A DNA stretch of 64,000 nt from Paenibacillus sp. FSL M7-0420 (GTDB lineage: Bacteria; Bacillota; Bacilli; Paenibacillales; Paenibacillaceae): assembly GCF_038002345.1 (NCBI RefSeq), contig NZ_JBBOCJ010000001.1, positions 6,076,001 to 6,140,000 of the forward strand. The letters are read 5' to 3'. Made by a program: the position numbers and the translations under genes. How positions within the stretch are numbered: position 1 is the first letter of the stretch; each line of letters begins with the position of its first letter. The notes beneath the pieces are model-generated. The model searched no databases. It was given only the letters and a program-made list of their open reading frames with translations, and was not told where the DNA came from. This document shows, in pieces, positions 6,573 through 61,074 of this stretch.

Positions 6573-6692
6573 AAAATTGTAGGAATGGTAGCGACAGCGC
6601 CCCATTCCGCCGTTCTTTGCCTGCCCCCTCCCCCCAATAACTGAAGATATCAATTTCAGTTGAATAAGCCATTAACAAAAAGCTGGGAAGGA

Positions 6693-6819
6693 GCGGAGGG
6701 GAAATTTGGAACTGTAGGAGCGATAGCGACCGCCTTTATGTTTGGATTTCTACCGCGCCCAGCGGGTTCAATCAGGAAATCCAAACATAACAGCGGCCGA
6801 AAGTCCAAATGTTCACCGC
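6693..6819 (+). repeat. Palindromic repeat element, copy 1 (covarying hairpin)
   Basis: This 127-bp non-coding element folds as nested stems: GCGG/CCGC at the ends (6693-6696, 6816-6819), ATTTGGA/TCCAAAT (6704-6710, 6804-6810), CCGC/GCGG (6730-6733, 6793-6796), and a perfect 15-bp central stem TTATGTTTGGATTTC/GAAATCCAAACATAA (6736-6750, 6776-6790) with an inner CCGC/GCGG loop stem. A second copy sits at 60899-61026 on the minus strand. The flanks are nearly identical but the central stem differs by compensatory pairs. Homology extends about 20 bases further 5'. The stretch at 6582-6609 may be a degenerate third copy. The region 6573-6900 holds no gene. Confidence 0.8.
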
Positions 6820-6960
6820 AGTCGACGAGTTTAAGCTTTGTGTTACTACCCTTCCATCTCAGATTTATATCTTCAGTCAGCTCCTTTACCATTTTGAAAC
6901 TAATTGCCCGAAAGGTTAGGATATACTAGCCACAGATGAATCCTAAGGAGCGTAACTGCA

Positions 6961-17122: not shown

Positions 17123-17240
17123 TGCTTGGCAACGTCCTACTCTCCCAGGACCCTTCGGTCCAAGTACCATCGGCGCTGGAGGGCTTAACGGTCGTGTTCG
17201 GGATGGGTACGTGTGGAACCCCTCCGCTATCGCCACCAAA
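17123..17240 (-). rRNA. rrf: 5S ribosomal RNA
   Basis: The minus strand reads TTTGGTGGCGATAGCGGAG at the 5' end, then the conserved loop with CCCATCCCGAACACGACCGT, ending in GTTGCCAAGC. Length is about 117 nt. Ends are estimated from the terminal helix and could shift by one or two bases. It is last in the 16S-23S-5S operon. Confidence 0.95.
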
Positions 17241-17340
17241 CATGATTTTTGCGCTGCGTGGACATCTGTGAGATCACTCCCGCAAAATATCAATCCTTTA
17301 AAAGGACCTGCAGCTTAAAATCTTTCAGGAATTGATTCCT

Positions 17341-17375
17341 GAAAACTGAATCCGAAACGAATCTGCGTGTTAGAA
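17341..17375 (-). other. 3' arm of the 23S precursor processing stem
   Basis: This 35-base arm just after the 23S 3' end is complementary, with few mismatches, to 20385-20420 before the 5' end. Both contain AAACTG-type ends and CGAAACGAAT. This is the expected duplex cut by RNase III or Mini-III in 23S maturation. Confidence 0.7.
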
Positions 17376-17378
17376 ATT

Positions 17379-20304
<2,926 letters not shown>

Positions 20305-20384
20305 AATGTGTTTTCCCTAAGGAAAATCACGGTAGCAACTAATAACTATTTCCACTTGCTTACACAAGTTTCAGCTAAAAGATG

Positions 20385-20420
20385 TTCTAAAACGCAAATT
20401 CGTTTCGGTATCCAGTTTTC
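20385..20420 (-). other. 5' arm of the 23S precursor processing stem
   Basis: Mate of 17341-17375. The 16S-23S spacer (20305-20596) contains no tRNA gene that I can recognise. Confidence 0.7.
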
Positions 20421-20499
20421 AAGGATCAAGTTGCTGTAAGTTCGGGTCGAACACAACTGTGTCGATCGAAGTTACAGACGGTTGAGAGCTTAAACTCTC

Positions 20500-20527
20500 A
20501 AAACTGACCAACGAGTGAGTATTCGAA
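20500..20527 (-). other. 3' arm of the 16S precursor processing stem
   Basis: It is complementary to 22241-22268 at about 25 of 28 positions, sharing the CAACGAGTGAGTAT core. Together they enclose the 16S gene. Confidence 0.7.
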
Positions 20528-20594
20528 CCCAAGGGTTCTTTGGTGGAAGCAAGCTTCCGATTTGAATGTTTCCGTTGCAGGAAACGATTCTCCA

Positions 20595-22154
<1,560 letters not shown>

Positions 22155-22240
22155 AATTGGTATTTAGAAAGAGCGATTGCTCATTTTGAAACATCTGACG
22201 AGAATTTACATTCTCTCATTTTGGATCTCACCGAAGTGAT

Positions 22241-60819: not shown

Positions 60820-60898
60820 CGTTGTCGCTCCCTTTGATTAGTTGTGAATGGCTAGATAAGACGCACTTAAGAGTTGAACTTGAAGCTTGGTCGAAGCT

Positions 60899-61026
60899 GC
60901 GGTGAACATTTGGACTTCCGGCCGCTGTTGTCACCAGATTTCTTGATTTTGAACCGCTCTTCGCGGTAGAAATCCGGTGACAAAGGCGGACGCTATCGCT
61001 CCTACAGTTCCAAATTTCCCCTCCGC
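60899..61026 (-). repeat. Palindromic repeat element, copy 2 (covarying hairpin)
   Basis: This is the minus-strand counterpart of 6693-6819. The central stem is TTGTCACCGGATTTCT (60968-60983) against AGAAATCTGGTGACAA (60928-60943), with one G-T pair. Compared with copy 1, five pairs are changed on both arms so that pairing is kept. The outer stems (GCGG/CCGC, ATTTGGA/TCCAAAT, CCGC/GCGG) and most unpaired bases are identical. It lies within the nucleoside operon between the permease stop and the hydrolase start, in the direction of transcription, and fills the 255-base gap there. Confidence 0.8.
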
Positions 61027-61074
61027 TTCTTTTTGCTTTTCGCTAATTTCTTTCGTGTGCCTTATCTACCTTGT

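Follow-up and report, generated by a model that had tools for sequence, protein, structure and literature searches.

The bcr1-bcr18 repeats of the Bacillus cereus group are dispersed in intergenic regions; according to the excerpt of PMC3446304 used here, bcr1-bcr3 are MITE-like, bcr10 and bcr18 have a conserved secondary structure, and many copies are transcribed in UTRs or operons. The Correia/NEMIS elements of Neisseria and other bacterial MITEs are described, in the part of PMC10969869 consulted, as small and non-autonomous, with terminal inverted repeats and with transcripts predicted to form stem-loops. We liken the Paenibacillus element to both groups by description, not by sequence; with the bcr repeats it shares a dispersed, intergenic and MITE-like character. 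It differs in the block exchange of a paired centre and in its IS630-type ends, neither of which is mentioned for the bcr repeats in the excerpt of PMC3446304, and in a hypervariable paired cassette, which the excerpt of PMC10969869 does not mention for the Correia/NEMIS group.

Based on the analyses below, we propose, with a probability of roughly 0.7, that the element is a non-autonomous IS630-type MITE of approximately 210-240 bp, which forms a long imperfect hairpin and swaps ready-paired cassettes. The literature searched (titles and the starts of abstracts) and Rfam contained no description of the repeat. Over the window, i.e., the whole stretch of 64,000 nucleotides that was analysed, Rfam matched only rRNAs at gathering score, in keeping with the sequence-only reading, which had assigned the element to no named family. 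A complete rRNA set (16S, 23S and 5S) lies on the minus strand at 17124-22158. Between 6600 and 6900, five sub-threshold Rfam matches at E up to 5 were rejected as hairpin-driven chance matches, the best being mir-50 (E 0.00013; 30.7 bits against 43).

The two copies in the window

Both palindrome copies were read directly in the sequence. Copy 1 lies on the plus strand, and its core at 6693..6819 was recovered by sequence, BLAST and a covariance model match. The true element is larger than this 127-bp core: copy 1 reaches at least from the 10-mer ACTGAAGATA (6640-6649) to the inverted copy of the same 10-mer, TATCTTCAGT (6868-6877), and these repeats, together with the orthologous arms, give a probable full extent of 6640..6877, the exact ends being uncertain. 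The central 15-bp stem, a helix in the alignment, consists of a 5′ arm at 6736..6750 (TTATGTTTGGATTTC) and a 3′ arm at 6776..6790 (GAAATCCAAACATAA), with an apical hairpin, CCGC...GCGG, at 6753..6765 (helix 6 of the alignment). Copy 2, on the minus strand, spans TA to TA; the full element occupies 60855..61066 and is flanked by TA at 60853-60854 and 61067-61068, as delimited by empty and filled orthologous sites. Its core, supported by sequence and a covariance model match, is located at 60899..61026, and the arms of its central stem at 60969..60983 (5′ arm, TTGTCACCGGATTTC) and 60928..60942 (3′ arm, GAAATCTGGTGACAA).

Direct comparison confirmed that the two copies differ at stem positions 3, 5, 6, 7 and 8 on both arms and that position 9 becomes a G-T pair. 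That the copies are palindromic and mobile and retain their pairing, as the sequence-only reading had it, is borne out by the alignments and by the empty and filled sites described below. Gene context likewise agrees with its statement that both copies run in the same direction as the flanking genes; copy 2 is located between two co-directional genes.

A small hairpin at 6578-6612 (TTGTAGGAATGGTAGCGACAGCGCCCCATTCCGCC), just upstream of copy 1 and present in relatives too, resembles the element core without the cassette, TAGCGAC being followed directly by CAGCG. The promoter-like site at 6894-6922 is weak, a single match where shuffles give 0.9. An intrinsic terminator function was rejected: copy 2 has no terminator-like site, and the only one at copy 1 is upstream of the element.

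Family, ends and mobility

BLAST with the copy-1 region identified 40 places and one partial place in the own genome (40 of 91 candidates scored). Thirty own-genome copies were aligned with MAFFT without regard to structure (alignment A1), and the covariance model built on the same 30 copies (R1) gave at least 103 own-genome matches with E no higher than 0.01, with 150 out of 2485 candidates scored. Nine were dropped, namely seven opposite-strand matches of kept copies and two weak ones, and 94 copies were used; 92 of these score at least 69 bits and the remaining two 53.7 and 38.4. The covariance-model search that the sequence-only reading had suggested for Paenibacillus genomes thus revealed a large family, with about 94 own-genome copies and matches in 37 of 37 same-genus genomes (43 of 60 genomes overall). 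In an order-wide draw, 83 of the 119 genomes had matches, and these covered 18 of the 34 genera. Named genomes were also scanned with a DNA pattern; among the 80 loci listed, 78 carry a Paenibacillus title and 2 the title 'Bacillus sp. FJAT-27264'.

The own-genome copies were classed by their ends and score. The A and B types both have TATATA ends, while the 'solo' class has other, non-TATATA ends; a further class has some 40 nt of additional sequence in its 5′ arm, and the 'lo' class has a lower score, the common centre and different arms. The 40-nt stretch (GAAAGCTTTCCGCAGGAAAGCTCGCATCGTAAGCAT and variants) was observed at L077, L097, L108, L122, L124 and L126 and at L204, L225, L228, L229 and L230, and it may be present or absent at one locus depending on the species. 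A lower-scoring subfamily (L067, L072, L075, L081, L085, L090, L094, L102, L110, L111, L128, L134, L135, L139, L143, L150 and L153) has the same centre, other arms and no TATATA ends, and several of its members adjoin terminator-like hairpins.

Orthologous regions show mobility. At the copy-2 site, compared over 30 loci with G003 left out because it was not parsed, full elements are present in G000 and G087, one common internal deletion in G088 and G113, a short spacer without element in G115, G101 and G114, fragments in G119 and G063, and other element types in G084, G015, G028 and G031. By flank spacing, of 19 own loci compared with four relatives, at least 12 are empty in one or more of these relatives (L065, L066, L068, L074, L080, L082, L096, L099, L104, L136, L149 and L151); among the matches listed, L063 and L079 are filled in all four relatives, and 5 of the 19 loci are mixed or unclassifiable. 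Alignments of 12 loci showed one TA when the site is empty and a TA on each side when it is filled, most clearly at L096 and L104; L080 and L082 are compatible with TA duplication, the boundary at L082 being ambiguous as its empty site reads TATATAG. TA duplication is a hallmark of the IS630 family. The presence of TA on both sides speaks against an IS200/IS605-type (HUH), REP/PATE-like element without target duplication for the A and B types.

The copies are dispersed, short and free of coding sequence: none of the 94 is overlapped by a coding-like ORF in codon-scored gene calls, a cruder ORF list placing short ORFs over some of them. Terminal inverted repeats, target duplication and empty sites complete the MITE features for the A and B types, the two types that the evidence for the repeats and the duplication covers. 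Since the 'solo' and 'lo' copies have the core without IS630-like ends, the core is not simply IS630-derived.

DDE_3 transposases are present in 49 of 100 genus genomes, and a genome search found none in the own genome. Of 30 DDE_3 loci of relatives, 15 carry TATATA-type inverted ends at both ends, and L408 at one end only. The sequences TATATAGATTGAACT and TATATAAATTGAACT are found at IS ends as well as at B-type element ends. The B-type end, one of the two commonest end types, matches IS630 ends of relatives without a difference over 15 nt; A-type ends are similar only. The one IS locus tested is IS630 (NF033545), with 142.1 bits for its second ORF (cut-off 100) and 97.7 bits, just below the cut-off, for the first. 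The element is therefore like the IS630 family in its TA duplication, its matching ends and partner ORFs that match NF033545, and unlike it in that no coding-like ORF lies over the 94 copies and the hairpin core is absent from the IS loci, no R1 match being found inside or beside the 30 IS630 loci fetched. In the MITE explanation, an IS630 transposase would act in trans, with none in the own genome now, and this lack of an autonomous partner in the own genome counts against the explanation, as does the lack of an R1 match at the IS630 loci. Searching the own genome with an end pattern yielded 22 matches against 3 for the control, and several of the 22 lie away from known copies. An IS630-type transposon with two overlapping frames at L396 (870-2041), for which genome G028 has three equally scoring DDE_3 matches, is perhaps a recently active partner.

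Pairing and exchange of the central cassette

In A1, 97.7% of the cells are paired and 15 of the 43 pairs show two-sided changes. None of 500 shuffles reached the paired percentage, either two-sided-change count or the covariation score, and 2 reached the number of pair types; covariation beyond chance was thus upheld on a structure-blind alignment. When the partner was slid by 1-3 columns, 34-46% of the cells were paired. Two model-fitted alignments, both biased towards the model, gave 97.2% paired with two-sided changes at 35 of 43 pairs (90 own copies) and 94.8% paired with such changes at 34 of 43 pairs (75 distinct matches from the 80 named loci). Pairing with two-sided changes lies far above the controls, and the body of the element retains its pairing through many changes of sequence.

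We collected 223 cassette records by a text pattern that does not require pairing; they contain 51 different 5′ hexamers. Positions 3-8 are fully paired in 160 of the 223, whereas re-dealt 3′ arms gave 22.8 on average and at most 36; all these pairing counts include orthologues and close paralogues, and none is a count of independent events. Diverged arms that do not pair, which the sequence-only reading had named as evidence against its view, do occur: in own copy L105 (= L028), the arms belong to two types and do not pair, and 63 of the 223 cassettes are incompletely paired at positions 3-8.

A main event became apparent at orthologous sites. At the copy-1 site, G000, G087, G063 and G084 have ATGTTTGG/CCAAACAT as their centre, G088, G113, G114, G115 and G086 have GTATACGG/CTGTATAC, G112 has GTCACCGG/CTGGGGAC and G095 has GTTTCCCG/CAGGAAAC; the 5′ part is lost in G101, and the stretch examined contained no element in G119 and G111. 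Between G000 and G088, the 5′ arms of copy 1 are 0.99 identical, the cassettes 0.71 and the 3′ arms 0.83. Thirty-three orthologue comparisons were made at 11 loci, and in 13 of them both arms are at least 0.90 identical. In 9 of these 13, cassette identity is 0.75 or lower, and in 4 the cassette is kept (0.87-1.00). Three of the nine (L229, L230 and L225) differ almost solely by the extra insert, L204 differs by the insert and a few stem changes, and L207, L228, L217, L357 and L358 carry a different stem-loop (three loci: L082, L079 and L141). Conversely, at L079 the cassette is common to G000 and G101 (0.93) and the arms differ (0.80 and 0.70). Because arm and cassette identities vary separately, arms and cassettes behave as exchangeable modules.

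Block exchange of a paired stem-loop accounts for much of the 'compensatory' change. Since the central stem and loop are swapped together between near-identical arms, a difference between paralogues need not represent five compensatory mutations, and the simplest account of the differences at paired positions between the window copies is that they carry different ready-paired cassettes. Recombination between copies or alleles via the conserved sequences flanking the cassette would swap such cassettes, and a swap of this kind would produce the five 'compensatory' changes between the window copies. The earlier choice between selection on an RNA fold and arm-to-arm conversion named two processes that are weighed below, and it missed this replacement of a whole paired block. 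Against the exchange reading stand the 4 comparisons in which the cassette is kept, the 3 with little more than an extra insert, and the failure to find a cassette donor: for 10 own loci, the closest of the other own cassettes is 0.84-0.95 identical. The origin of the cassette diversity still needs fold selection, a templated mutation process, or both. As a caution for other families, the exchange of whole segments that are already paired can produce 'compensatory changes' between paralogues, so that covariation statistics that treat substitutions as independent overstate RNA selection.

Folding strand, orientation and selection

G-U/U-G pairs outnumber A-C/C-A pairs by 250 to 13 in the own copies (120 to 13 without two wobble-majority pairs) and by 199 to 44 in the named loci (111 to 44 without these pairs); in A1, the Watson-Crick-majority pairs alone give 43 to 8, as summed from the table. 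The excess persists in copies pointing against replication (49 to 4), and a replication-strand mutation bias alone is therefore insufficient. At stem position 9, 135 of the 223 cassettes have G-T and 84 have G-C, and the neighbour positions vary. In 15 of the 223 cassettes (e.g., L233, L255, L268, L272 and L292), GA stands opposite GA at stem positions 5-6, replacing two Watson-Crick pairs, which suggests tandem sheared G-A pairs. Judged from the sequences, the conserved G-U, the putative tandem G-A/G-A and the excess of G-U over A-C point to folding of one defined strand. In the mechanism proposed here, the plus strand would have to fold when single-stranded, whether in an RNA or in DNA that is exposed on the lagging-strand template.

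With the origin and terminus set by GC skew, 73 of the 94 copies point with replication (p about 7e-8). The counts with and against replication are 26 to 7 for A, 18 to 1 for B, 13 to 5 each for 'solo' and 'lo', and 3 to 3 for mixed copies. Replication and transcription direction are largely confounded and only partly separable: between co-directional genes that run with replication, 48 copies point with it and 8 against.

One possibility, which we place somewhat short of even odds and which is compatible with MITE identity, is selection at the RNA level, the element residing in mRNAs or forming its own small RNA, with a hairpin that is bound or processed and a fold that is selected. The G-U excess and the covariation would be expected in this case, as would the fixed G-U and the GA opposite GA with its possible sheared pairs. 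Copies between co-directional genes also mostly follow the genes (53 along them, 12 opposite), and the position of copy 2 agrees with this tendency. However, where co-directional genes run against replication, the copies split into 4 that point with replication and 5 that point with the genes, and between convergent or divergent genes 21 of 29 copies still point with replication (p = 0.024, codon-scored calls). A cruder gene context based on ORF length gave 29 of 35 for the latter, and the codon-scored count was relied on. Strict terminator-like sites upstream of the copies are a further point against RNA-level selection, as copies with such a site on the same strand (17 of 94) may sit beyond the upstream transcript; 7 of 94 have one on the opposite strand, and random windows have 7 in 376. 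Downstream, such sites occur on the same strand in 1 of 94 copies and on the opposite strand in 4 of 94.

The orientation bias is what selection on single-stranded DNA would predict, in which a hairpin formed by the plus strand on the lagging-strand template during replication matters for mobility or repair with no RNA involved; we consider this reading tentative and clearly below even odds. Besides the bias in the own genome, including that between convergent or divergent genes, 63 of 90 copies in the relative G087 (90 of 99 matches listed) and 46 of 60 in the relative G101 (60 of 66 matches listed) point with replication, counts that are not independent, as some of these copies also occur in the own genome. 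DNA, too, tolerates G-T pairs and tandem G-A. The confounding of gene and replication direction weakens this reading, and TA on both sides points to the double-strand cut-and-paste route of IS630, in which no single-stranded fold is needed.

The third alternative, in which template switching or hairpin repair copies one arm from the other without selection, is very unlikely: the outer arms of the 18 'solo' copies do pair better with their own partner (mean -25.2 kcal/mol against -14.2 for foreign ones), and the arms beyond the core at L063 and L079 differ between sister species and yet fold into long hairpins, but arm copying would erase the position-9 G-T, the GA/GA and the G-U over A-C excess, and loops change along with stems. 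Because the pairs indicate folding of one defined strand, such copying alone is insufficient, and arm-to-arm conversion as the sole cause, one of the two options of the sequence-only reading, is unsupported. Across the 76 copies in which the own 3′ arm was compared with foreign arms, the own arm is among the best 5% in 11 of 18 'solo', 11 of 33 A, 6 of 19 B and 3 of 6 mixed copies.

The MITE with exchangeable cassettes may also be part of something broader, a diversifying hairpin system across the Paenibacillales, in which a fixed frame holds a hypervariable paired cassette exchanged by recombination, each locus presenting one stem; we regard this as unlikely. If it were true, the variable stem might serve as the surface recognised by an RNA- or ssDNA-binding protein or used in the mobility of the element itself, and the system would be a natural generator of structure-preserving variants. 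The family is in any case large and spread through an order of mostly soil bacteria, with no Rfam match at gathering score. About 100 own copies, many sister genomes in which sites are either empty or filled, and a probable IS630 partner make it directly testable whether selection on bacterial hairpin repeats targets RNA or single-stranded DNA. In Paenibacillus zeisoli, three copies lie within about 1 kb (L287, 6724-7692).
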